The notes under the pieces were generated by a model. It saw only the letters and a list, made by a program, of their open reading frames with translations. It had not been told where the DNA came from and searched no databases. DNA of 64,000 nt from Cryptosporidium bovis (taxonomy: Eukaryota; Apicomplexa; Conoidasida; Eucoccidiorida; Cryptosporidiidae): contig VHIT02000028.1 in assembly GCA_009768925.2 (NCBI GenBank), positions 124,001 to 188,000 on the forward strand, read 5' to 3'. Shown here piece by piece: positions 1 to 45,847 of the stretch (position 1 is the first letter of the stretch; every line of letters starts with the position of its first letter). The translations under genes and the position numbers were made by a program.

Positions 1-2397
1 TTTTAGACGGTGATACAAACCCCAAACAACATTCGCTATTCCAGGAGCTTGCCTTGACATTAACAACACACCAATCCTCAATCCTACACCGGGGCCTTCA
101 GAAGAAAGATCAAGTTGTGCTTCTTGGCAGTAGAAGTGATTAGAATTGCACAAATGTGGATAATATGTTGTAATTTGTCTTTTTATTAGTGGGTCCGATA
201 AATTGTATTGAGTTGTAGGTTTACATCTGGCCTTCAAATTGGTCAAAAGTATTGGCAATGGTGGTCTGTAAGTTGTGCGATAAAGCTGAAGAGGGGATAA
301 TGTTCCCTGAATCCTGTTGAATACCCCCCTCTTACCCGTACTAGTTCCTTGTGATATATTTCTATCAGTCTCCCCTATAATGCCTTCTTCCTCACCACCA
401 TAAAGTAAATCCTTTATTTCTGGTGTCCTGACAATATACGGAATAGTCTCAGAACATGGACCCTCAAATTGCAGTGGACCAGGGGCACGATAAAGATCTT
501 TAAACTTCCAAATATCTCTGACTTGCTTTAGCAACTTGAAGAGTGGCCCATTTAGATCTACCAGCTGTCTAGTAACGGCAGCATAATAACCTGATTTTGA
601 CTTTTTTGCCTCCATTATTCTCGTAATGCTAATTCCACACGCTTGCCAATCTATTGGATTACCTTCAAGGCCCCTAATAACTGCAAGGTATCCATTCATA
701 CCCTTTGAAACAAGCGCTCCTGCACAGTGTCCAAGAGCATAACAATAGTTTGAATCAAAATTTGATGGCATTGCGCATCTTCCCTCGTATCCCAAATAAT
801 GGTGCATCATTGTAAAGCCAAATGGCATCAAAATAGAGTCGGGGTATTTATTGGAACTGTCGATTTCCACTGGGACAGCCTCTTTAGTTTGCCCATGTTC
901 AATATCGTAGTAAAATGACGTTCCATGCCTCCTATGAAGTTCTGCCTCTACTAGTAATATCAAAAGTCTTTCCGTTGCTATCTTAGCAACTTGTATCTGT
1001 CCTGTTGCTTCCCTATCAAGTAAAAGTTGTTCTCTTATATTTTCCGGTAAATATTCCCAAATACCGGCGGAAGATTTAGACAGTAACTTACAAATTTTTC
1101 TGTCATACTCATCTGGAGCTATCTCATCTCCTTCATCATCCTTCAATTCGTCCAAAATATCGTTTAGTTCTTGAATTAATACTTTAATTTCAGGAATGAA
1201 TTCTATCAAACCTTCTGGAATAAGGATAATTCCGTACATTTTTCCTTGCCTAGAACGTTCTTCCATCAAGTCTACGATGCTTTTTACGATTTCAAATAGT
1301 GTTATACCTTCATGTTCAACTTCTTCCGCAATAAAAACCATATTTGGTCTTGTTTGTAGGGCAACTTCAAGTGCTAGATGAGACGCAGACCGTCCCATAA
1401 CCCTCACGAAGTGATATACATTTTGAGATGTACAAATGTCAGAGCATAGATTCCCAACACATTCAGCATAGGTTCTAGCAGCAGTGTCAAATCCAAAGGA
1501 AACCTCTATCGCTGGATTCTTAAGGTCACCATCAATTGTTTTTGGAACGCCAACAACGCAAATACTATTCTTTTTCTTTCCCATGTAATCAGCAATCAAA
1601 GCGGCATTCGAATTTGAACCATCTCCACCTATGACAATTAAGCCGTGTAATTGAAGTTGCTCGCAAACCTTTTCAACATTTTCTAGGTCTTTTTCACCGT
1701 TTATCCTTCCCCTCCCAGACCAAAGCATATCGAAACCACCTTGATTCCTAAAACGGTCCATCATTTCATCAGAGACAACCTTGTATGTCGACTTAAATAG
1801 GCCATCTAATCCCCCTAAAAATCCAAAAAGTTGACTGTCCGGATGGTGGTTTTTAATGAAATCATAAACACCACCTATTACATTATGCCCTCCTGGTGCA
1901 GGCCCACCAGACAACACAATACCAACTCTTAAAGCGTGATATGAATGTTCCACATTATTAGAATCATCTCTAACGATTTCAATGCATGGCCTACCAAATG
2001 TGTTAGGTAATAATTCCTTTAATTTATCTCCATCTTTCTGAACCAAATCTGGTATGTCAATTTCCTTTGTTTCTATTGAATTAGTTGCAAGAGAATACGG
2101 TAAAGTTGGTGTCCAAAATTGTCTTTCGAGTTGAACAGGGCTAAAATTTTCAAAAAGATCTGCAGAGTGAAGGTGTGGTTTTCCGCCCATTGATAATTTG
2201 AAGGAATCCAACCTAGTAGTCAAATTGCGATCAAAAGAGTCTCTCCTTCTAACAGGCTTCTGAACAGAATTAACCCTTACGGTAGAGGATACAGCCTTAT
2301 CCCTGTCAATATGAGTATCTTCCAGAATTACGGCAAGACTCCTAAGACGGCGAATGTTATTTCTTTGAACCTTATTTGTTTCTCTACTAAAAAACAT
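1..2397 (-). CDS. PFK: Phosphofructokinase, PPi-type long form (beta half plus start of alpha half); truncated by left window edge
   Basis: Glycolytic 6-phosphofructokinase of the long plant/protist PPi-PFK class, acting on fructose 6-phosphate in the cytosol. The frame is open from the ATG at 2397-2395 to base 1 (799 codons), so the C-terminus is missing. Visible landmarks are a phosphate-loop-like GGPAPGGHN at about residues 162-170, GGDGS at 257-261, and PKTIDGD at 285-291, whose Lys286 is typical of the PPi-type family. A second Rossmann start (a degenerate copy of the first loop, SRQAPGIAN) lies at about residues 775-785. This indicates the beta-alpha double-domain form known in plants and apicomplexans, with the alpha half continuing outside the window. 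Gly260 sits where classical PPi enzymes have Asp. Cryptosporidium PFK has been reported to use PPi. The start is the first Met after in-frame stops. Confidence 0.93.
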   Translation of the reverse strand, partial: MFFSRETNKVQRNNIRRLRSLAVILEDTHIDRDKAVSSTVRVNSVQKPVRRRDSFDRNLTTRLDSFKLSMGGKPHLHSADLFENFSPVQLERQFWTPTLPYSLATNSIETKEIDIPDLVQKDGDKLKELLPNTFGRPCIEIVRDDSNNVEHSYHALRVGIVLSGGPAPGGHNVIGGVYDFIKNHHPDSQLFGFLGGLDGLFKSTYKVVSDEMMDRFRNQGGFDMLWSGRGRINGEKDLENVEKVCEQLQLHGLIVIGGDGSNSNAALIADYMGKKKNSICVVGVPKTIDGDLKNPAIEVSFGFDTAARTYAECVGNLCSDICTSQNVYHFVRVMGRSASHLALEVALQTRPNMVFIAEEVEHEGITLFEIVKSIVDLMEERSRQGKMYGIILIPEGLIEFIPEIKVLIQELNDILDELKDDEGDEIAPDEYDRKICKLLSKSSAGIWEYLPENIREQLLLDREATGQIQVAKIATERLLILLVEAELHRRHGTSFYYDIEHGQTKEAVPVEIDSSNKYPDSILMPFGFTMMHHYLGYEGRCAMPSNFDSNYCYALGHCAGALVSKGMNGYLAVIRGLEGNPIDWQACGISITRIMEAKKSKSGYYAAVTRQLVDLNGPLFKLLKQVRDIWKFKDLYRAPGPLQFEGPCSETIPYIVRTPEIKDLLYGGEEEGIIGETDRNISQGTSTGKRGVFNRIQGTLSPLQLYRTTYRPPLPILLTNLKARCKPTTQYNLSDPLIKRQITTYYPHLCNSNHFYCQEAQLDLSSEGPGVGLRIGVLLMSRQAPGIANVVWGLYHRLK

Positions 2398-3029
2398 TTT
2401 CAATTTCACCTAATATTACCTCAAATATTTTCTGAATTCTTCAATTATTACCTTATTACTTAAAATGTATACCTTTTAATTGCTATACAAGAATATCATT
2501 AATATTTGAAAATAAAAAACAGGAATAATTCATTCACACATAACCCTCACGAACAATTGTCAATGAGAATTATTGCATTCAAAAATCCCGCCATTGTGGA
2601 ACTTCTAGAACATATTAGGTCGAGATAAATTGAAAAAAAGCTTAGTAAATTTTAACTAATAGCGCAAACACACTGATATATAACTTCCTACCAAAATTTC
2701 ATAGTTTTAGCAGCAAAATTGCTGTAAAAATGCATATAGTTATATAGAAATTTGTTCTGAATTATTTTAAACCTAAATATATATATACATATGTAAATCA
2801 AAATATTAAAATTCGCAACAAAAGTCATTAATTTGTGTGTGTTTATGGAGTTTGAATATATCATGTTGATTTGCTAAGATTTTATTCGAATACAAAACCT
2901 AACAAATATCTCTATTTGTTCCTTAATTATTTGTTTCTAGTGTCAAAATGAGGGGTGACTTGCGCTCGCATTTAAAATAGTTTTACATGTATCTTTCCAC
3001 AAAATATTTCTCACTTCACTATCTCTAAA
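2398..3029. other. Intergenic divergent promoter region
   Basis: This 632-base AT-rich spacer lies between the divergent phosphofructokinase and polycystin-like genes. I see no long reading frame or RNA gene. It contains TCCCGCC at 2586-2592, an E2F-like half-site, and a local GC-rich patch near 2945-2970. Otherwise it is A/T runs with a TATATATA-rich stretch near 2775-2790. Confidence 0.5.
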
Positions 3030-19730: not shown

Positions 19731-22238
19731 CTATGTATTCCTAAGTAAACTAGAAATTGATTGCATTGCGCATGTTATTGTAGCGGCTTGTTTTGCTTTA
19801 CATACAACTATCAAGTAATAAATTAACTCCTTGTATGAAAAAATTATTCTGCATCTTTCAAAATCAGAACGGAGAATATTCTGTGGGCTACATATCGTTT
19901 TTTTAAGGAGAACCTTTAGTTCAAGTGGGAGAAAACTGTTATGAACCAATTCAGTCATCTCAAACTTGGTAACACCACAAAGTTTAAATGCATAACTCCA
20001 AATAGACGACCTTATAGGATTTGTAGTTGGGACTTCAAATATATCGCATATAGTTTTCATCTTTTTGCTACATTCAAATAACAGGATATCCAATTCATTT
20101 TTTATACAATTCGAACACTCTTTTGAATACGTTGAGAGAATAGACCAAACTGTTTCTGAATAAAACTCGTAGTCTGACATTTGAATGGGAAAACTATTTA
20201 CCGTACATATTAAATGGTCGTTTTTTGTTACCGAATTTTTTTTGTTTGAAACTTTGTTATTTAGTTTCTCCTTCGCACCTCCTGTTTCTTCTTTTTCACA
20301 TTCTGTTAGATTGTGCCCTAAAATCGATTTATATTCATTCAAGCTAAATATTTTATCAGATTTATCACCTATTCTTTTGAAATTGAAAGAAATTGAATTT
20401 TTTTTTACCATTGGTTTTGAATTCATAACAGAGGAAAGCAGGAAGCGATCTGCCCAGTGCTTATCTGAATTTGATCTTAGTATGATTGCATCGTTTTTAT
20501 TCATACTTAAAATATCTCCATTATGAGAGAATCGATTTAATAAGTGAATAATTCTTATTAACTTTGAATCATCATCTTTAAAGTTGTTGCTACCAACAAA
20601 TCTTTCCCTAATCTCCTTTTTATTTCTTTTTCTTTCCCTTAATTTATTGGGAGAGAAATCAGAAGTGGAGACTTTTTCATCACTTTTTTGAAACTCTGGT
20701 GAATTGTTTTTGAACTTAAAGCGATCTAAATTAAAAAATTCAGTTAAATTTAATCTGAATTTATCAATTTTAGAGTGAAAAAATCCTGTAGAAAGAATGT
20801 AGTTTTGAATTAAATTTATTTTTGTTGAAATAAAGGGAACTAAAATTCCTGTTGATTTTCTGGTATCTATTTGTTGTGAACTGAAAATGCTCGAGGCATT
20901 CCCACTAGTAATTGAATCAGTAACTAAAACTTCTTCGTTCTCTTGATTCACAACGGAGTTATCCTCTTGTTTTCCTTCTTCACTTGAAACATAAACATAA
21001 TCAGACAGAATTTCTTTATAGTATGATGTTTCTAAATAAGCAAGTATGTTATCTGTTGATTTTGATTCCAAACCTTTTTTATACTCTATACAGTCTCTGA
21101 GATTCTCCGCCGTTGGGTCATAACAAGTATTACCATCGCAATTTACCCCCTCAAGAGGGTCTGACCCAAGTTCCCAATGGTCCATAGATGTAATACCGAA
21201 AGAACAGGATAATTGACACATAGATTGAATTGTTGTAACTATGCATATTATATGAGAAAGTTCAGTAATTGTCCAAACCTGTGTAGTTGAAAAAGTTCCA
21301 ATAAGCCTTTTTAATAAATCACTTGAAACACAACTCGGCTCAAAAGTTATAGATTTCAAATATTCAAATAATACAAAAAACTTGTCTGGGAGAGCATTTA
21401 GAGGATTTTTTAACCATTCTATTGGTCCATTATTTATCAAAAACATTTGAATTTCCAACTTTATTATGTAGTCGTTGTCATACAATGAAGAACTCAAAAT
21501 ACCTATAAAATGACGATAAAACAATGGTAAAACGCCATACCTCCTATCCTCCATAATCACTTTATATGAATTTAGCAAAGACTCTGCATACTCTGGAAGT
21601 ATATATATTAACCTAAATATTGAAGGGATTCTTCCGTAAAAGGTATTAAAAACACTCTTCCAAAAAATATCTCCCTCATTTTTGTCATCAAATATAGTAA
21701 AACCAGGTGTCCCAGGGATCATGAATTCTGGACACATAAATCTGCCGCATGGAAGTGGAAATTCAATATTGTCATTTGCAAACATTCCAATCGCTTTGTT
21801 TAAATCAATCGAAGTTCCACCTATTGTTATTTTAAATAAAAACTCTGAAGGAATGCTTTCAATAGGTATATCACAAAAAACCATCCCATTATTAATTTGT
21901 TTTTGATGAGTTGTTATTTTTTTGTTGTCAAGTGATCCCCACTTCAACAACAGTTCATTGTATAACTTGTCCCAATGTTTTAAAATGGCACTCCTAATGT
22001 TTCCATAAGGATTAAGGAATGTTGAGAGACGAAGAAGTACACACAATGTTTGCTCAAAACGCCAATACTCGGTTTTTTCATTCAACAATATTTTATTCTG
22101 AATGAACGTAATCTTTCTTTCAATAATATAATATGTTTCACCACTATTTATTTGCTCCCAATTTGGAATATCTAAATATTCCCAGATAAGTTCTTTGTAG
22201 CTAAGAAACAAGAGCAAGTTCTGACTGAAGTCGTCCAT
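19731..22238 (-). CDS. Sestrin (PA26) family protein, divergent
   Basis: An 835-residue protein with both sestrin lobes. The N-lobe (about residues 195-350) contains PEYAESLL, YRHFIGIL at 241-248, WLKNPLNALPDK and WTITELSHIICIV, all collinear with animal sestrins. The C-lobe ends the protein and contains IRSSIWSY near 742-749 and the terminal helix block. Sestrins act as leucine sensors and stress proteins upstream of TORC1 in animals. By hand alignment, Arg743, Thr739 and Glu804 match human SESN2 leucine-pocket R390, T386 and E451, with identical 61-residue Arg-Glu spacing. The peroxidase Cys125 is Asn255 and His132 is Glu262. A long disordered insert (about 390-690) separates the lobes, making the protein much longer than animal sestrins (about 480-550). 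Confidence 0.85.
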   Translation of the reverse strand: MDDFSQNLLLFLSYKELIWEYLDIPNWEQINSGETYYIIERKITFIQNKILLNEKTEYWRFEQTLCVLLRLSTFLNPYGNIRSAILKHWDKLYNELLLKWGSLDNKKITTHQKQINNGMVFCDIPIESIPSEFLFKITIGGTSIDLNKAIGMFANDNIEFPLPCGRFMCPEFMIPGTPGFTIFDDKNEGDIFWKSVFNTFYGRIPSIFRLIYILPEYAESLLNSYKVIMEDRRYGVLPLFYRHFIGILSSSLYDNDYIIKLEIQMFLINNGPIEWLKNPLNALPDKFFVLFEYLKSITFEPSCVSSDLLKRLIGTFSTTQVWTITELSHIICIVTTIQSMCQLSCSFGITSMDHWELGSDPLEGVNCDGNTCYDPTAENLRDCIEYKKGLESKSTDNILAYLETSYYKEILSDYVYVSSEEGKQEDNSVVNQENEEVLVTDSITSGNASSIFSSQQIDTRKSTGILVPFISTKINLIQNYILSTGFFHSKIDKFRLNLTEFFNLDRFKFKNNSPEFQKSDEKVSTSDFSPNKLRERKRNKKEIRERFVGSNNFKDDDSKLIRIIHLLNRFSHNGDILSMNKNDAIILRSNSDKHWADRFLLSSVMNSKPMVKKNSISFNFKRIGDKSDKIFSLNEYKSILGHNLTECEKEETGGAKEKLNNKVSNKKNSVTKNDHLICTVNSFPIQMSDYEFYSETVWSILSTYSKECSNCIKNELDILLFECSKKMKTICDIFEVPTTNPIRSSIWSYAFKLCGVTKFEMTELVHNSFLPLELKVLLKKTICSPQNILRSDFERCRIIFSYKELIYYLIVVCKAKQAATITCAMQSISSLLRNT

Positions 22239-35330: not shown

Positions 35331-38300
35331 ATGGCCAAGGATAAAAGATCTAAGTACATAGTTGGTTTCACAATACATGCAGGCAAGGGTTTTGTTACTC
35401 CTAACCAAAACCCCATAAATCCCTTAGTTGTGGTAAGATGTTGTGGGAGGGAATACAGAACAAAAGTAAAATATAACAAATTAATTGCAACACAATGGGA
35501 CGAATCTCACTCATGGACCGATATTTTTCTAACAGATACAGAATGGGATATGTCATTTATCACTTTTGAGGTTCAATCTGCAAATTCGTTCTGGAAAAAT
35601 GATGTTATTGGGCAATGTTCTGTACAATTAAAGACATTAAGACAGAGAAAGAACCATTTTTTGAAAAGACACTTCAACATTACTGAATTAAATGATACAT
35701 TTACAAAAGGAATTCTTTATTTAACAGTATACGCATGTGGACCAAACGACACACCACCTACAAGTGACGTATTAGAGTTACTGAATGCAGAAGAGGATAA
35801 TTTTCAAAATAACCAAATCGACTTTTTAAGTCAAATTGTTGGAATTCCTGAGTCTGACAAAAACAAATTGTTTCAAGAAAGAGAGAAGCAAATTTATAAT
35901 TTGTATGTCACAATATACAGAGTTGAGGATTTATTATTTAAAAAGGGTTTAAGAGACCCATTTGTAACCGTAGAGTTCAGTGGTTGCAGCATGAAAACTA
36001 CAATAGCACGTGGAGTACTGGACCATAATTTTAATGAGTGCCTCCGATTCCCAGTTGTGACACCAATAGTGGAAGACATTATAATCTTAAAATTATGGGA
36101 TGGTTCTACCAAACAACCAACGCTTATTACACAAGGAAAGTTTTCATTTGCCAAAGTTCGTTCTACGATTATCCCGGTAAGATGGTACAATTTTTATGGG
36201 AATTCTTGCTCAGATATTGAATTTTTATCAGAAGTTTCAACAGATAATTACTTTACGGAAAACATTCATACAGAAAATGATATGTATATAGGTAGAATAT
36301 TACTATCGCTAAAAACAGAGCTATTAAGAAATATGGATCAATTAATGCCTGCTCAAATAATATCTGCACAGCCATTGGATGAGTTATTTACTAGACCGTG
36401 TCAGGTAGTAGCTGATGTTTATTCAGTGAAGGGTATTTTCGGAAAGAATGCATGCGTAGAGGTATCAATTGGACCCGTAAAACGAAGAACAGAATTTGTT
36501 CAACGCGAAAAGAGTGAGCAAAAATACGAACATACAAGAAATGGTGTTAAAATAGTTGAATCAGGTAAACAGATAAATATGGACAATTTCTTTTTTGGAC
36601 CAGCAGAAGGAAGGGTACCAACAATTGAAATCGAATCTCAATCAAGAGAAGAACATACTTGGGATGTTATAATATCAGTATATACACACGACAGATTAAA
36701 AACAGATAATAATAGTAAACATGGAACTTTAACTAACAATGAAATTGCCATTGGCTCAAGAAGAGTAGCTTATTTTAGAGCAGCTATCACGAATATACCA
36801 ATATATTTAGAGAATAAACCCATGTCTCCGATTTGGCTTCCACTTAAACAAACAAATGAAGGTTGGTTGGACTTAATAAAAAATAAGGAAGTTGATGCTA
36901 ATGAGCGTTTTATACCAATTGAAGATCTTAATGAAGGAAAAAAAAAAGAAAAAAACATTCAGGAGATTGATTTGTATAGTATTGGTTCGAGTGCAATATT
37001 AATTTCAATATCAAAACATTTTTCTACAACAGTAAGGCGTACTAAAAGACATACAGTAAAAGCTATAGACTATGAAATAAGGTGTTACTTGTATGCTTGT
37101 AGGAATTTAAAAGAAAGTGGTAAAGATGAGAAAACAAACCCATATGTTGTTATTTCATCTTCTGGAGTGTATACAACCTCATCGATAAAAATAGGAACGA
37201 CTAATCCAACATTCATGGAGTGTATTACTTTGAGGGTTAAGGTTGAAGTAGACCCATTAAGTTCACTTCCAATAGTTTCACCTATTACAGTGAGCGTTTT
37301 TTCAAGACACAGCTGGGGAAAGAGGTATATTGGATCATGTATTTGTATATATGATCGAATTAAAGGTAGAAACAAAAAAAGTGAGCTTGCAAATAGAATT
37401 GAACCCTATTGGGTGAAACTTAAAGGCGGAAGAAAACTTCATTCTCATGTAGGTGATATTTTGATTTGTATTGATATGGTTAAGGCTTGTGATTCAAAAA
37501 TGATCCCACCACAACCACTTTTTCCCGAACTTAGAAAAGTTCAAATGATAGTTACAACAACATTTCTTCAAGAATTATTTATGATGACAGATGAAAATGT
37601 AAGAGAGAATATCAAGTCAAAGATACAGAGTAATGATAACTCATTTTTCAAACAGGGAATTATTGGTTCAAAAATCGAACAATTAAAGGTCTTGAATAAC
37701 GTTAATGGAGATTTCTTCCTTGAAAACCACGAAAGAGGAAATTCTATTTCGACTGAAATAAAAAACCCAGTTATAGAATTTGTTGTTAGTCCATTTGGAA
37801 GGGTTGATGCATCAATTGATTCAGAGGTAAAGAAAAATGAAGGTAATCAAGAAGGCAAAGGAATGAATACTAATAATAAAAGTAGTATTCCAACATTTAG
37901 GCATATCCTACAGTGGAAATCACTCACTAATTCTGGTAAAAAAGAATTTATTAATAAGACATGGAAAACAATGAACGGTTACAATTTTGAATTTTTTAAG
38001 TCTATTACTTTGGATATTTTTCTTCCTGTGTCACCATTATTTGATCCAAGACTGACAATAAGAGTTTTTGAAGGCATAGTTGATGAAACAAAACTTATTG
38101 GTGAATTCATTCTTCCATTAGTGACATTCTTACCTTGGATCCCCGATGTTGATTCTGCTGACGATTGGATTTCTGCAAAACACGACTTTTCAAATAATAT
38201 CGACATTTCTACTATTGTAAATGCATTTATGAAAGGTAATAAGAAGAATTTAATAAAACATTCGGGTTTAGTAAGCATAGCACTGGCAGATATGCAGGAA

Positions 38301-40382
38301 AAAAAAGAACAAAGTGTTGAATCAAAAAATTATCCTTTCCCTTATGTAAATAAACACGAAGAAATGGAGGAACTTAAAAAAAAGAGTCTAAAAAATCAAG
38401 GACTGAATCAATCAGGTGTTCCTATTTCTTTGATGAAGTCCTACACAATCCAAAATGTCTATTACCCAAGAATTTCTCAGAATATGTTTACAATTAATAT
38501 CCATATACCCTTTCATTTTATTATTGTAGCAGAAGGCGAAGCCACCAGTAACATAAATAATCTAAAAATTTCAGCAGCAAATTCTGGATTAAGTGTAGGC
38601 GGTGTAATAACAACAATTACGTCAGGAAAAACAGTTACACTTCGTCCTTCAATTGATACAACAATGGAGGAGTTCCTTTCGGATATTTTTATTCCAGTAA
38701 TACCATTGAGGAAAAGGGGCTTTCAAGGAACAAAAAAAACATTTGGATATATTAGAGGTTTTGTTTTACTTGCTTTGCCTGAAGTGGTTGAGAGAATAAA
38801 TTCAATCGGTAATAGTGAGAATGAAGGAGTAAATTCTGAGAGTAACGAGAACAAATATTCAATCGAAATAAAAAAAGCAATCGAAAATAACCAAATATCA
38901 AGATGTTATAGCGAGGATGTGATAAAACATATTATTAATTTAAGTAGTCTTTACAAGAAGTTGAAGGGTGATAACGTTTATCCAAATCCAGTTAGAGTGA
39001 GACTATATATATTATCAGCATTGGCACTCGTTACGCCAGATCCGAATGAGTTTATCGACTTTGATCAGAATTTGACAAAAATGTCAATGGTCGAAAAAGT
39101 AAAAAGTAAATTTTCACTTTTGGGTACATTTGAACAGAAAACGAGGATAAAATCATTCTACATTTCCATAGTTTGTGGTTCGAAGGAAGAAAATTTTAGG
39201 TCTTTAGCAAAAACATCACTTAGTCCACTTTTTTATATTTTCCAAGAGTATAATGTTAATTTTCCAATGGAAGCGAGATTTGAAATTAAAATATGGGGAA
39301 TACAAGAGAAAGTATATCCATATTTTGTTAGTAAGATTTTTGGACTAGTTTACAACGATAATGACGAAAAAGGTGAAAACAAAAAAGGTGAAAACACAAA
39401 TTCAATGACAATAGACGAAGAGAAGAGTGAAGTTACTCAGGAACTTGGACCTGAGTACGACATATTTATTGGAAGTACTGTTCTTGAACTGACAGACCGT
39501 TGGCATAGCAAGGAGTGGCGTCAAATGATGAGAGAGAACCGTATTCCAATAGAATACCGTCCTTTATATAAAGATTGCACTAGTAATTTGAATTACGGTT
39601 TACTACAATTGTGGGTGGAAATTATGAGTTCAAGCAAGGCAGCAATTACAAAAAGATACGAACTTTCAGAACCAATTCCTACAGAAGTAGAGGTTAGAGT
39701 TGTAATATGGGGAGGTAGGAACATTAAAATACCCTTAAATATGGACTATGGAGATTTGATGTTCAAAGCATCACTAGACTGCAAACAATATCCAGAATAT
39801 AGAGCAGATTTTGGAATAAACAATCCTAAAGTACAAGAAACAGATATACATTTTAACTGCAGGAGCGGAGAACCAATATTCAATTGGAGAATCGTTTACC
39901 CTCACCTTGTAACTCCTATAAGTGGTTGTTTATTGCAGCTATCAGCATATCACTACAGTTCCTTTGGGAACCATGAATTCATAGGTGAAGTTAATTTAGA
40001 TTTGAGAAGATATATCATGAAGGTATCAAGTTCATTAGAGTCCATTGATGAAGATGTGGAGTTACCGCTAGTTAATTCTCAAGGCGTTGATTCTTCGTTT
40101 GTTAATGCAGGTTCAGTGCAGGTTACAATTCAGATAATGCCCCAATCTGAGGCTAATAGCAAGAAAGTTGGCATGGGAAGAGAGTTGCCTAACAGATTCC
40201 CAAAACTTGTTACACCATATTCAGGGAGAAATTGGGAAGACTTTTTACAACTGAAAGAGAGACAAGACAAATTAAGGCCAATTTGGATAAAAATAAGAAT
40301 ATTGTATATAATATTCGCGATACTGTTGTTTTTCATAATAGGGGCCATATATCCTGCACTGTTTTATCAATCAATTTCTTAG
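35331..40382 (+). CDS. Ferlin-like multi-C2 tail-anchored protein
   Basis: A 1683-residue protein with several C2 domains and a C-terminal TM, the ferlin plan. C2-like units are seen at about residues 8-120, 186-310, 358-480, 578-720, 885-935 and 1455-1600, and the TM at about 1655-1677. The segment KRHFNIT-x-L-N after the first C2 resembles the FerI region. Ferlins mediate Ca2+-dependent vesicle fusion; in Toxoplasma they act in microneme and rhoptry secretion. Many Ca2+-binding Asp loops look incomplete, so some C2 domains may not bind Ca2+. Short repeats (KGENKKGENTN near 1345) mark disordered linkers. The paralogue (FER1 or FER2) cannot be fixed by eye. Confidence 0.87.
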   Translation: MAKDKRSKYIVGFTIHAGKGFVTPNQNPINPLVVVRCCGREYRTKVKYNKLIATQWDESHSWTDIFLTDTEWDMSFITFEVQSANSFWKNDVIGQCSVQLKTLRQRKNHFLKRHFNITELNDTFTKGILYLTVYACGPNDTPPTSDVLELLNAEEDNFQNNQIDFLSQIVGIPESDKNKLFQEREKQIYNLYVTIYRVEDLLFKKGLRDPFVTVEFSGCSMKTTIARGVLDHNFNECLRFPVVTPIVEDIIILKLWDGSTKQPTLITQGKFSFAKVRSTIIPVRWYNFYGNSCSDIEFLSEVSTDNYFTENIHTENDMYIGRILLSLKTELLRNMDQLMPAQIISAQPLDELFTRPCQVVADVYSVKGIFGKNACVEVSIGPVKRRTEFVQREKSEQKYEHTRNGVKIVESGKQINMDNFFFGPAEGRVPTIEIESQSREEHTWDVIISVYTHDRLKTDNNSKHGTLTNNEIAIGSRRVAYFRAAITNIPIYLENKPMSPIWLPLKQTNEGWLDLIKNKEVDANERFIPIEDLNEGKKKEKNIQEIDLYSIGSSAILISISKHFSTTVRRTKRHTVKAIDYEIRCYLYACRNLKESGKDEKTNPYVVISSSGVYTTSSIKIGTTNPTFMECITLRVKVEVDPLSSLPIVSPITVSVFSRHSWGKRYIGSCICIYDRIKGRNKKSELANRIEPYWVKLKGGRKLHSHVGDILICIDMVKACDSKMIPPQPLFPELRKVQMIVTTTFLQELFMMTDENVRENIKSKIQSNDNSFFKQGIIGSKIEQLKVLNNVNGDFFLENHERGNSISTEIKNPVIEFVVSPFGRVDASIDSEVKKNEGNQEGKGMNTNNKSSIPTFRHILQWKSLTNSGKKEFINKTWKTMNGYNFEFFKSITLDIFLPVSPLFDPRLTIRVFEGIVDETKLIGEFILPLVTFLPWIPDVDSADDWISAKHDFSNNIDISTIVNAFMKGNKKNLIKHSGLVSIALADMQEKKEQSVESKNYPFPYVNKHEEMEELKKKSLKNQGLNQSGVPISLMKSYTIQNVYYPRISQNMFTINIHIPFHFIIVAEGEATSNINNLKISAANSGLSVGGVITTITSGKTVTLRPSIDTTMEEFLSDIFIPVIPLRKRGFQGTKKTFGYIRGFVLLALPEVVERINSIGNSENEGVNSESNENKYSIEIKKAIENNQISRCYSEDVIKHIINLSSLYKKLKGDNVYPNPVRVRLYILSALALVTPDPNEFIDFDQNLTKMSMVEKVKSKFSLLGTFEQKTRIKSFYISIVCGSKEENFRSLAKTSLSPLFYIFQEYNVNFPMEARFEIKIWGIQEKVYPYFVSKIFGLVYNDNDEKGENKKGENTNSMTIDEEKSEVTQELGPEYDIFIGSTVLELTDRWHSKEWRQMMRENRIPIEYRPLYKDCTSNLNYGLLQLWVEIMSSSKAAITKRYELSEPIPTEVEVRVVIWGGRNIKIPLNMDYGDLMFKASLDCKQYPEYRADFGINNPKVQETDIHFNCRSGEPIFNWRIVYPHLVTPISGCLLQLSAYHYSSFGNHEFIGEVNLDLRRYIMKVSSSLESIDEDVELPLVNSQGVDSSFVNAGSVQVTIQIMPQSEANSKKVGMGRELPNRFPKLVTPYSGRNWEDFLQLKERQDKLRPIWIKIRILYIIFAILLFFIIGAIYPALFYQSIS

Positions 40383-40891: not shown

Positions 40892-43800
40892 TTATACCTG
40901 AGGCCTTGATTGAACAATTGCTACATTAAAGTCAGTTTTATTCGTTGATGAATCCAGGTATTCAATTATACAACCTTCTATATCCTGTGGGATTCCATTG
41001 TATTCATCTTGAATATAAAAAGCAATCGTTGCAAGAAGTTTAATTATTTCAGTTCTGTATTTTTCATTATTCATAATTAGCTGATCTAAGTAAGTTATAT
41101 ACCTACTTGAAGGTTCAAATAATGGAATAGATTGAAACACTCCTGCACCTGCAAATCCTTCAATATCCTCTGCATTAGAGTCAGACCTAAATATGTAATT
41201 GTTATTAATCCCATTAAGTTTGAATTCTGTAGAATTCTTTACGCAGTTAAATGAATCGAAAACACCTATAGACTTTGAAGGTAAAGAAATAATATCAAAA
41301 CAGATAATGAATTGGTTGTCTTTATAATTTTTGTTATTTCTAATTCTTTTCGATGTAAATCCCAATGATTTTCCACATGAGTTGGAAACAAGAGTCTCTC
41401 CAAGACCTAGAACAATTTCACCATACATCTCATCATAATTTGTGTCTTCCCTGTCGCTATTTGAATTATTTTGAGTTTTTATAGGGTTTTTGCTATGCAA
41501 AACAAAAGCATATTTTGCATTAATAAGCTTTTGTATTACGACTGACATGAATACATTTGAAAGTGATTGCCCTATTTTCCTCATATTGTAGTATGCTAAA
41601 GGTTGGTAGACTGAACACCAAACTTTTTTGATTTGGCTCCAAATCAATTTACTAACCTTTGAATTTCTCATACTAATCAAATCTACCTTGTTCATTTGAT
41701 TCTCAGAAATAGCTGAGGTGAAGTTATTCGAATCGTCATTTTCGAATTTATAAATGGCTTTGTTGACCTCATCTATTAATTGTGTGCTTGGTTCCAACTC
41801 ATTTTCAATGATATCGCAAATCATACTTAATGTACCTGATATTTCATCCTTATTTAGATCAGATTCTTCAAGAAGTTTCATGTTTTTACTCACTTTGTCA
41901 TTAATACTGCCACTAAATAATTTTTGTAGAGTTCCGAAAGGGAGCGAAACACAATTTGGAACAAAAAATGGTGGTTTATTCTCTGAATTCAGCATTACTT
42001 TAAGCTTAACCAAATTTATGGCCTTTTTTCCAACCTTGTTCTCGTCCATTTCGTTCGGATATAAGACCCAAGAATCACTAATTTCTTTAATTTTGTTCTT
42101 GAATTCGAATAACCTTGATTTTTGCTTAACATTTGTTTGCAAAACCGACTTTTTTATCAGTAACTCCTTTGTAATATCTTTTTTTTGAATATTAATTCTC
42201 ATATCATTTGTTACTTGAATTTCACAAATGTCACCTGTATTTACTTTGTCAGCATTCTCTGATAAAATCGCAGGATTTTGGCAAACAACAAGCAAAACTG
42301 ACATATTTCTAGCTCTAACAGATAAGTGAGAGAGTATATCCGGAGAGTAGTCCGGATTTGTAAGTATTATTCCAGTAACATTCATTGGAATGTCTTCTTC
42401 CCCAGAAATATAAGAACAAATGACGATTTTTGGATACTCGTCCTCACCTATATCAGTGACTCTGTTTACTTTTTTCACAATTCCAATATATTTTTGATCG
42501 GATCTCCAGGATGGATTGTAACTTATAAATTGCCAGTCTTGTAGTTTATTATTTGGTGCATTGTTTAACAAATAATTGTTTATTCGCTTAATTTGAAGTG
42601 ATATAGTAGAAAGCAAAGTAGACCTGAGTATCTCATCCATAAAGTTCTTCATAATCGGATCACCCTCCTTCAAGCCAATGTTCTTTGAAAAAAAAACGAC
42701 TTTAGGGTCCCAATCAGTATAAGTTTTATCCAGATAATTTCCAACGAAAATATGAAGTCTTTCTAAAATACTCTTTAATAAGAGATTATTTCTAAGATTT
42801 GATGAGTCCCTAATAAAGTTTTCCCAATCAAAACAAATAGCTGCCAATTCTTTACTAGTCGGATTGTGACCAAATAAAATCGAAAGGAACGAATTCAATT
42901 CGTTTACCAAGTTATTTAAGTCACAATGATTGTTTGTTATTGTGCACATTGATTGGACAAACATTCCTTGCAAATTCTCCAGTCCTAAGTCCAAAAAGAG
43001 CAGTTCCTTTATTGCATGTTTGTTATATTTGTCCGAAGAGCAGCCACCATGAGAATAATAAATTGAATTTAAGATTTTTTCCCTTGCATTGCTAATTGTC
43101 ATGAGTCTTCCATGAAGAACAACTAAATCCTTTGTATCATCAAACTTCTTGGAATCACCAAAAACAATAGAGGCACAAATATTTTGCAATTCTGTGTCCA
43201 TATATTGTCTTGAGTAATGTAATGATCTTTGTAAATTAAGTGCTTCATGAACATCTATTAATACTTCTAGATATTGTTCAAAGTCGCGAACTAACGTATT
43301 TATGTCAGTACCATTAGGTAAAAATGGTTTTGTTGTAATTGGTCGATCATACGATGATATTTTTTCATAAGACAATCCATTTTCAAAGAGCACTCTTGAG
43401 AAAACCTCCTCGTTTCCATTACTTTTTAGATATCCGATGATAGAACGACATATTCCAACGTCATCAGGAGTTGTATTATTATGTAACTTTTGGTGCCATT
43501 GCTCATAAAACGTTCCATGTTGCTCAGGAATACCATTTTTATGCATAATGTGCAAAATCCTATCTCTAACTTCCTGACCTCGTGAGCCACCTCTAATAAC
43601 TGTCTGCAATATAAGTCTAATTTGAGACCTATATTCGGGGAATTCAACCCACTTTGACACAACGGAAAATGATGCATTCTCAGCCGAATGAGCCAATAAC
43701 CTCGGAGCCGTATTGTAATTTCTTTGCCAATCTAAAACACCAAGAACATTAAATCTCATCCAAATCATGATCCAAGACCAGAACTCCTCAACTTCCGAAT

Positions 43801-45847
43801 TTAGATTTTCTATTAACGCATCAGCGATTATCAATTTTGAGGCGAAACTTTTTGATTCAACCTCCTCTTTAAACTTATTTGACCATATTACCTGGTAATA
43901 TTTTGAAATTTGAGTGTAAGAACTACTTTCCTTAAATTCTCTGTGCCACTTTTGAATGATACTATCCATCAAATTATATCTATGCATCAGTGTCATACTT
44001 GACCAGTCAACTTCTGCAACAATTATATTTTCAATAATATCGGACCATGGGCCTTTCCATTTTCTATTTATATCAGTTTCTGAAATAGAGATAGGAACTT
44101 CAATATCCTTATCTCCATCCTTGTACCAATGTACATTTCCATAGACATCTTCCCCTCTAAACACACACACAAATCTATTATATAATTCCAATGTTGATTT
44201 ATCTATGATAATTTCCAACTCCTGTTCAAAAATAAGACTAGTTGTTTTTTCTTTTAGTAAAAGCTCAGTTTCCAGTGCCTTATCATCAACTTCTATGCTG
44301 TTAGCCGGACGACAAGAATTCGGAGGGCATCTCCACCCCACTTTTCTCCCCTTTATTGAACTGTCCAATAAACCCCAATGTAATAACAACATTCCCTTTG
44401 ATATTGTTTTTAAAATTAATATGCAATTTGAATTACGATTTATTGATATTAAATAGAGTAAACCCATTTCTTCAGATAAGTGATAAATCTTATTTGCTAT
44501 TATAGACTCATTGGAAATTGAATATTTATTCATAGTATCATGTTTGTATTTGTCTTTTTTGCCGAGGAATTCCTGAATTTTGCACTTCCACCTTTTATCA
44601 TCACCGATAAAATTCAAATTTAAAGTTGAATCTATATTAACATTTTTGGACAGTAACGGGAATTCATATGTAAAATCACCATTATCTGCAGATTTTACCC
44701 ATTTTATTGAGTTTGTGTTGCCATTCTTTGGACAAATTTTAATTACAAATACTAAGCCTCTGAAAATACCTAATAATTCTTCCGGAAGTTGTAAAACACA
44801 AGTAGAATATTTGTCTTCCTTTTTAAATGTTATTTCAGACGCTTGACTATTTATATTGTCTATTAAGGTATCGCTATTTAATTTTTTCAAAAAATTATAT
44901 GGTGAATTCCAAACTATGTGATCTGTACTCTTCGTAAGACCAAAATGGAGGATGATTTCACACTCGTTTAATAATTTTGTGTCCATTTTTGAAAGTTCTG
45001 CTTCCATATTTACGATATCAGTAAATATCATTATTGTAAACAATCCCGGTTTATTTGAAACTTCATTATTTCTACTAGAAACAAGGTAAACGAAAGAGTT
45101 TGTTTTTTTGTTATTTGTGTGATAAAATTTATGTTGTAAGCCATTTTCATTATTTTGGTCATTCTGTGTTAGTAGATAACATCTTGAATCACGAATTTCT
45201 TTGTTTTTAAATTCATTCTCTATGTATTTTCTGTATAGATTATTACACATAAATATTTCGTCTACCAATTCCAGTAAAAATAATTCCTCCCCAATAGGCA
45301 GAAAAAAATCTAGATTTCTATCTGCACTCTTAATCCAAGTCTTGATCATGGACTTAGACACAAAATTCGGGCTCGTATTAGTACTTAAATAAAACACAAA
45401 TTTCATTCCCCACTCTCTGTTTTCGTAATTTAACCAGTTAGTAATGTTTTCACAATTTTCTAATCCATTTATTGCGTTCTCATCCTTTGTTTTTTTGTGA
45501 GAAAATCTTAGATGGGAAATATCCATTGTAATTTCACAAGAAAGGGCAACCCCATCCTTACATGGTGATAGCATTGATTCACATGATATTCCGTCTTCGC
45601 ATTTTTCAGGAGTAGCACCATTTGAAGAGAACAAACAACTTGTTGGTTGAACCCAGTTTGAGTTTCTGTTTGAGGATACACCCCAATGTAAAACCAAAGG
45701 GGAGTCCAGTTCAACAGTTGGTGAAAATACTATGTTAATCAACAACTTCTTTTTGTTTTCTATAATTTTTAGCTGAGACTCAACAGTCGATCCATCTGAA
45801 CACTTATTACTTATTGATTTACAATACTCAACATTATTTTTAGTCAT
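40892..45847 (-). CDS. GWD: Alpha-glucan water dikinase (R1-type) with three starch-binding modules
   Basis: A 1651-residue enzyme that transfers the beta-phosphate of ATP to amylopectin and so opens storage polysaccharide to degradation. The N-terminal half has three carbohydrate-binding (CBM45-like) modules, each with an LxLHWG or LHFG strand and a distal W-x-K-x-x-D stretch ending in a Pro: strands near residues 52, 298 and 487. The conserved middle contains FYEQWHQKLHNNTTPDDV near 785-800. The phosphohistidine domain has LSHLSVRARN with catalytic His near 1172. The C-terminal ATP-grasp domain shows FRSDSNAEDIEGFAG near 1553. All key parts look intact. Amylopectin granules are the energy store of coccidian and Cryptosporidium stages. 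Confidence 0.94.
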   Translation of the reverse strand: MTKNNVEYCKSISNKCSDGSTVESQLKIIENKKKLLINIVFSPTVELDSPLVLHWGVSSNRNSNWVQPTSCLFSSNGATPEKCEDGISCESMLSPCKDGVALSCEITMDISHLRFSHKKTKDENAINGLENCENITNWLNYENREWGMKFVFYLSTNTSPNFVSKSMIKTWIKSADRNLDFFLPIGEELFLLELVDEIFMCNNLYRKYIENEFKNKEIRDSRCYLLTQNDQNNENGLQHKFYHTNNKKTNSFVYLVSSRNNEVSNKPGLFTIMIFTDIVNMEAELSKMDTKLLNECEIILHFGLTKSTDHIVWNSPYNFLKKLNSDTLIDNINSQASEITFKKEDKYSTCVLQLPEELLGIFRGLVFVIKICPKNGNTNSIKWVKSADNGDFTYEFPLLSKNVNIDSTLNLNFIGDDKRWKCKIQEFLGKKDKYKHDTMNKYSISNESIIANKIYHLSEEMGLLYLISINRNSNCILILKTISKGMLLLHWGLLDSSIKGRKVGWRCPPNSCRPANSIEVDDKALETELLLKEKTTSLIFEQELEIIIDKSTLELYNRFVCVFRGEDVYGNVHWYKDGDKDIEVPISISETDINRKWKGPWSDIIENIIVAEVDWSSMTLMHRYNLMDSIIQKWHREFKESSSYTQISKYYQVIWSNKFKEEVESKSFASKLIIADALIENLNSEVEEFWSWIMIWMRFNVLGVLDWQRNYNTAPRLLAHSAENASFSVVSKWVEFPEYRSQIRLILQTVIRGGSRGQEVRDRILHIMHKNGIPEQHGTFYEQWHQKLHNNTTPDDVGICRSIIGYLKSNGNEEVFSRVLFENGLSYEKISSYDRPITTKPFLPNGTDINTLVRDFEQYLEVLIDVHEALNLQRSLHYSRQYMDTELQNICASIVFGDSKKFDDTKDLVVLHGRLMTISNAREKILNSIYYSHGGCSSDKYNKHAIKELLFLDLGLENLQGMFVQSMCTITNNHCDLNNLVNELNSFLSILFGHNPTSKELAAICFDWENFIRDSSNLRNNLLLKSILERLHIFVGNYLDKTYTDWDPKVVFFSKNIGLKEGDPIMKNFMDEILRSTLLSTISLQIKRINNYLLNNAPNNKLQDWQFISYNPSWRSDQKYIGIVKKVNRVTDIGEDEYPKIVICSYISGEEDIPMNVTGIILTNPDYSPDILSHLSVRARNMSVLLVVCQNPAILSENADKVNTGDICEIQVTNDMRINIQKKDITKELLIKKSVLQTNVKQKSRLFEFKNKIKEISDSWVLYPNEMDENKVGKKAINLVKLKVMLNSENKPPFFVPNCVSLPFGTLQKLFSGSINDKVSKNMKLLEESDLNKDEISGTLSMICDIIENELEPSTQLIDEVNKAIYKFENDDSNNFTSAISENQMNKVDLISMRNSKVSKLIWSQIKKVWCSVYQPLAYYNMRKIGQSLSNVFMSVVIQKLINAKYAFVLHSKNPIKTQNNSNSDREDTNYDEMYGEIVLGLGETLVSNSCGKSLGFTSKRIRNNKNYKDNQFIICFDIISLPSKSIGVFDSFNCVKNSTEFKLNGINNNYIFRSDSNAEDIEGFAGAGVFQSIPLFEPSSRYITYLDQLIMNNEKYRTEIIKLLATIAFYIQDEYNGIPQDIEGCIIEYLDSSTNKTDFNVAIVQSRPQV

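Follow-up and report, generated by a model that had tools for sequence, protein, structure and literature searches.

A divergent sestrin of Cryptosporidium bovis and its GATOR and Rag company in a genome where no TOR kinase was found

When no leucine is bound, animal sestrin attaches to GATOR2, leaving GATOR1 free to turn RagA off; WDR24 makes the contact (PMC12136191). In human Sestrin-2 (SESN2; PDB 5DJ4, 5T0N, 5CUF, 9LVJ) the substitutions C125S, H132A and Y127F leave control of mTORC1 intact, while D406A or D407A singly almost completely abolishes GATOR2 binding (PMC4674687). SESN3 and the Drosophila sestrin bind leucine weakly although their leucine motifs are kept, TYNT and HSEKVH among them (PMC11429811). 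Here we describe a sestrin gene of Cryptosporidium bovis, located at 19731..22238 on the minus strand of a 64,000-nucleotide stretch of contig VHIT02000028.1 (the window). What draws attention to this sestrin is the set of GATOR and Rag genes that accompany it, given that searches of the same genome turned up no target of rapamycin (TOR) kinase.

The gene is an uninterrupted open reading frame (ORF) from ATG to stop, encoding 835 amino acids plus the stop codon, and the plus strand over the same interval is riddled with stops. An earlier note on this DNA had described the product as a divergent sestrin aligning with both lobes of the animal proteins, a reading that profile searches uphold. The Pfam PA26/sestrin model PF04636, whose failure to match would by that note have refuted the reading, matches in two stretches with an E-value of 5.3e-31 (108.5 bits, curated cut-off 29.4). 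Both lobes of SESN2 are also matched by phmmer against PDB sequences (overall E 2.1e-11), the N lobe at residues 202-349 (independent E-value 1.4e-6) and the C lobe weakly at residues 738-829 (0.08). Profiles built from ten Cryptosporidium sequences match 120 of 120 animal sestrins with either lobe, at E-values of 1.4e-20 to 1.4e-7 for the N lobe and 1.5e-9 to 3.7e-4 for the C lobe; the best values from 2400 shuffled sequences were 2.9 and 0.45, respectively. Two fused AhpD-like lobes are present and the protein, as judged from these matches, is a true sestrin, though a divergent one within an already known family. A protein search returned nine relatives, every one from Cryptosporidium: C. 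xiaoi (96% identity), C. ryanae (74%), C. ubiquitum, C. hominis, chipmunk genotype I, C. canis and C. felis (50-52%), and C. serpentis and C. muris (40-41%). A further search with the ten-sequence alignment found no more, with a tool that needs shared words, so that the result is no proof of a restricted distribution. The family assignment is not new, since the C. canis and C. felis orthologues already carry sestrin names. Conservation was counted over the ten sequences (C. bovis and its nine orthologues), in which 227 of 835 columns are invariant; all sestrin features below lie on the minus strand.

The Sesn-A (N) lobe spans residues 200-365 (21144..21641), with 79 of 166 columns invariant and an hhalign match at 98.2%. 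The positions of the peroxidase residues Cys125, Tyr127 and His132 are occupied by Asn255 (21474..21476), Tyr257 and Glu262 (21453..21455) in all ten species, as the earlier note had paired them, a set that does not support peroxidase activity. A survey of 213 non-animal sestrins reports C125 in 90.1% of them, Y127 in 91.5% and H132 in 1.9% (PMC11429811). Against these frequencies the loss of Cys125 is unusual and the lack of His132 is usual, so Glu in place of His132, which the earlier note listed beside the Cys, is no special loss. By alignment, the loss of the catalytic Cys is fixed across the ten Cryptosporidium species, and the peroxidase role is probably gone. The protein differs in the same way from the bacterial AhpD-family peroxidases (PDB 6E8L, 2PRR, 3C1L), lacking the sestrin active-site Cys. 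Compared by their published description, the non-animal sestrins of Dictyostelium, Naegleria, Trypanosoma and others likewise nearly always lack His132, commonly have Thr at S190 and usually have an acid at 407, whereas most keep the Cys that C. bovis has lost (PMC11429811).

Two surfaces bear on docking to GATOR2. The WSLAEL patch (W189 to L194; motif from PMC11429811) reads WTITEL at residues 322-327 (21258..21275), in which Trp322, Thr323, Thr325 and Glu326 are each present in ten of ten species, giving Trp at W189, Thr at S190 and Glu at E193. The same survey reports W189 in 98.6% of non-animal sestrins, Ser or Thr at S190 in 55.9% and 32.4%, and E193 in 87.8%, by which Thr at the S190 place is usual. 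The second surface is the acidic hinge DDYDY, whose D406-D407 pair corresponds to Phe759-Glu760 (19959..19964), a pairing that our alignments reproduce. Position 759 is Phe in eight species and Ser in two; position 760 is Glu in eight and Asp in two, so that the 407 place is acidic throughout. In contrast, the 406, 408, 409 and 410 places are changed, Y410 being Glu in all ten. Non-animal sestrins have Asp or Glu at D406 in 53.5% and 25.4% and at D407 in 80.3% and 9.9% (PMC11429811), and judged by these values the loss of the acid at 406 is unusual.

The Sesn-C (C) lobe spans residues 686-830 (19749..20183), with 77 of 145 columns invariant. The leucine-pocket residues T386, R390 and E451 of SESN2 correspond to Thr739 (20022..20024), Arg743 (20010..20012) and Glu804 (19827..19829), each kept in ten of ten species, and F447 to the equally invariant Phe800. 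The Arg743-to-Glu804 spacing is 61 residues without a gap, as in SESN2. The lid residue Trp444 is replaced by Arg797 (19848..19850) and H454 by Tyr, both in all ten, while the H86 place of the N lobe holds Leu in nine species and Phe in one. The alignments confirm the earlier pairings of T386, R390, E451 and W444 and the Arg-to-Glu spacing. Around the TYNT lid the alignment is uncertain and the motif is not recognisable: T377 is paired with Lys726 by MAFFT, and the nearby Thr729 is invariant but lies inside a stretch with a predicted local distance difference test score (pLDDT) below 50.

The source assembly (9.06 Mb, 43 contigs) was searched with profiles for the partners of such a sestrin. 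RagA is encoded in two exons on C13 (locus L035, 1727-3070, minus strand), the first carrying GRAGAGKTS, separated by a likely GT-AG intron of about 0.4 kb. RagC was found on C1, DEPDC5/IML1 on C16, NPRL2 on C23 and, on C31, a WDR24-type protein with Arg at the R228 position. A protein of 1009 residues on C8 (L041, 1068-4097, plus strand) was recognised as GATOR2-type by its C-terminal zinc domain alone; it could be MIOS- or WDR59-like, its propeller and middle region being too divergent to call.

The PI3/PI4-kinase model found six loci in the assembly, none of them TOR-like. The locus on C37 carries ATR HEAT repeats and FATC, the first on C12 carries Tra1 repeats, FAT and FATC, and the second on C12 carries a PI3Ka domain as in VPS34. 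On C13, C8 and C38 the kinase is the sole domain over cut-off within the part scanned, which was 771 of 2112 residues on C13, 760 of 1100 on C8 and all 665 on C38, and we take these to be PI4-kinases; the scan covered 3246 of the 3444 residues of the C37 frame and 2906 of the 5617 of the C12 frame. Across the genome FAT occurs in one locus and FATC in the C37 and first C12 loci alone. The ATR- and TRRAP-type genes of this same genome thus serve as the internal control of the kinase and FATC searches, and because the models recover them but no TOR-like locus, a TOR kinase is probably absent. The earlier note had supposed a reduced TOR pathway, which understates the case: TOR was not found, yet RagA, RagC, DEPDC5, NPRL2 and WDR24 were. 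We know of no TOR loss in Dictyostelium, Naegleria or Trypanosoma.

The reading that we favour, at about even chances, is that this is a peroxidase-dead true sestrin that docks on GATOR2 through WDR24 and controls GATOR1 and the RagA-RagC pair, with an output other than TOR. Docked sestrin would set GATOR1 and through it the nucleotide state of the Rag pair, in response either to a small ligand in the C lobe or to the abundance of sestrin itself. Any such ligand would be other than leucine, whose contacts are changed because Arg replaces the lid Trp and Tyr replaces His454. The extra positive charge of Arg797 might suit a ligand that is acidic or phosphorylated; alternatively, it might pair with Glu804 in a salt bridge that shuts the pocket. 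In the absence of any TOR kinase from the search results, the Rag pair would need a different target, the likeliest being trafficking or degradation at an endosome-like membrane. The different output that the earlier note had allowed for holds to this extent, the sestrin output not being TORC1 if TOR is absent. A more specific and tentative version, which we consider possible but rather doubtful, is a TOR-free nutrient switch in which the redox-dead sestrin with its Arg lid reads a charged or non-leucine metabolite and signals through GATOR2, GATOR1 and RagA-RagC to a non-TOR effector.

Several observations weigh against the favoured reading. D406, Y408, D409 and Y410 are all replaced, at a hinge where single human mutations are so damaging. 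The C8 candidate lies at or below the Pfam cut-offs (26.5 of 27.4 bits; zinc_ribbon_16 at 27.2 and 25.2 of 27), with a best PDB E-value of 4e-4, and MIOS, SEH1 and SEC13 were not searched by name. NPRL3 (PF03666, at E <= 1) and Folliculin were not found in the assembly, in searches with no eukaryote among the control genomes. The FRB model, which had no positive control, and the Raptor model PF14538 gave nothing in the assembly and nothing in the control genomes either, again with no eukaryote among those for Raptor, and these negatives add little for that reason. Moreover, many WD repeats may have an Arg at the R228 position. The hinge was earlier taken to mean that the GATOR2 contact is lost. 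The loss of D406 stands, but the conclusion is too strong: docking, weakened on paper, remains plausible because the WSLAEL patch is retained, as are an acidic residue at 407 and the WDR24 Arg at the R228 position.

Among the alternatives, the one that survives best is a leftover scaffold, in which sestrin, GATOR and Rag serve constitutive membrane trafficking with no small-molecule ligand. The resemblance of GATOR2 architecture to vesicle coats (PMC8534245), the missing TOR and the loss of the lid residues are all consistent with it. However, the pocket region is the best conserved part of the protein: the C-lobe core (residues 736-818) has 56 of 83 columns invariant, against the Sesn-A value given above, 29 of 320 in the insert between the lobes, 42 of 199 in residues 1-199 and 227 of 835 overall, and when 30-residue windows are ranked by conservation, the top eight begin at residues 785-792 and take in Arg797, Phe800 and Glu804. 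Such conservation suggests that the pocket face matters, for a ligand, a partner or folding, and we regard a ligand-free scaffold as unlikely.

A leucine sensor of the SESN2 type, in which leucine binds Arg743, Glu804 and Thr739 and releases sestrin from GATOR2, is improbable. Thr739, Arg743, Phe800 and Glu804 are kept in all ten species and in 58 of 58 rows of a larger alignment, and the C-lobe fold is retained in the model. In contrast, the H86, W444 and H454 counterparts are replaced in every species and TYNT is unrecognisable. The core was earlier put forward as the retained leucine pocket; its residues are indeed kept, but much of the remaining pocket differs, and they make weak evidence of leucine sensing because most non-animal sestrins have T386 and E451 too (75.6% and 80%, R390 being reported for animal sestrins at 92.4%; PMC11429811), so that keeping these two is usual, and because SESN3 and the fly protein bind leucine weakly with motifs intact. 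TYNT and HSEKVH, which those two proteins keep, are not kept in C. bovis.

That TOR is present but missed, through an assembly gap or divergence, and that the pathway is ordinary, is decidedly improbable. In its favour, the assembly is in 43 contigs, FRB and Raptor lacked a positive control, Toxoplasma has a predicted TOR (PMC3228817), and in some apicomplexans TOR persists by itself or together with LST8 (PMC12467227). However, the kinase-domain and FATC models recovered both other large PI3-kinase-related kinases, one FATC at 23 bits, and loss of TORC1 in apicomplexans is published (PMC12467227, PMC5371417). Least probable of all is a sestrin that has left the GATOR pathway for an unrelated role of its lobes, N-terminal domain or insert, to which the loss of most of DDYDY, the folded extension of about 155 residues and the 320-residue linker would point, but against which WTITEL, the acid at 760 and the WDR24 gene are all retained.

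Relative to human SESN2, C. bovis sestrin differs by Asn for Cys125, Arg for Trp444, loss of D406 and an unrecognisable TYNT lid, and adds the N-terminal extension and the linker. In the model the extension (residues 1-155; 21774..22238) folds into a helical domain that includes a beta hairpin, and no clear match to it was found in the PDB; residues 1-65 of human SESN2 are disordered in the crystal structure (PMC4674687). The disordered insert that the earlier note saw splitting the lobes is real, occupying residues 366-685 (20184..21143), poorly conserved and with pLDDT below 50 over residues 352-692. Elsewhere in the window, an ORF at 1-2409 (minus strand) runs off its edge and by eye resembles a pyrophosphate-type phosphofructokinase; bases 1-2000 have a GC content of 0.397, whereas the remaining 2-kb blocks range over 0.275-0.355. 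A C2-domain, ferlin-like protein is encoded at 35331-40382 (plus strand), its ferlin C-terminal match lying below cut-off, and an alpha-glucan water dikinase at 40892-45847 (minus strand), with two Ig-like N-terminal stretches and with phosphohistidine and PPDK domains.

In Plasmodium falciparum and Encephalitozoon, RAG and GATOR1 were lost along with TORC1 according to a 2017 review (PMC5745459). Its Table 1 lists Cryptosporidium parvum, with columns for RAG and GATOR1, and so may already record the retained module. TORC1 loss is reported in apicomplexans by PMC12467227, in the main text of which Cryptosporidium goes unnamed, and by PMC5371417. Among the matches listed from the open-licence PubMed Central literature, none discusses sestrin, Rag or GATOR retained without TOR in Cryptosporidium. 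Rag GTPases and GATOR are interpreted mostly via TOR, and a TOR-less lineage with sestrin, GATOR and Rag would expose a TOR-independent output directly. How such parasites sense starvation was called unknown by a 2017 malaria paper (PMC5371417), and the C. bovis set would bear on how TOR-less apicomplexan parasites notice it.
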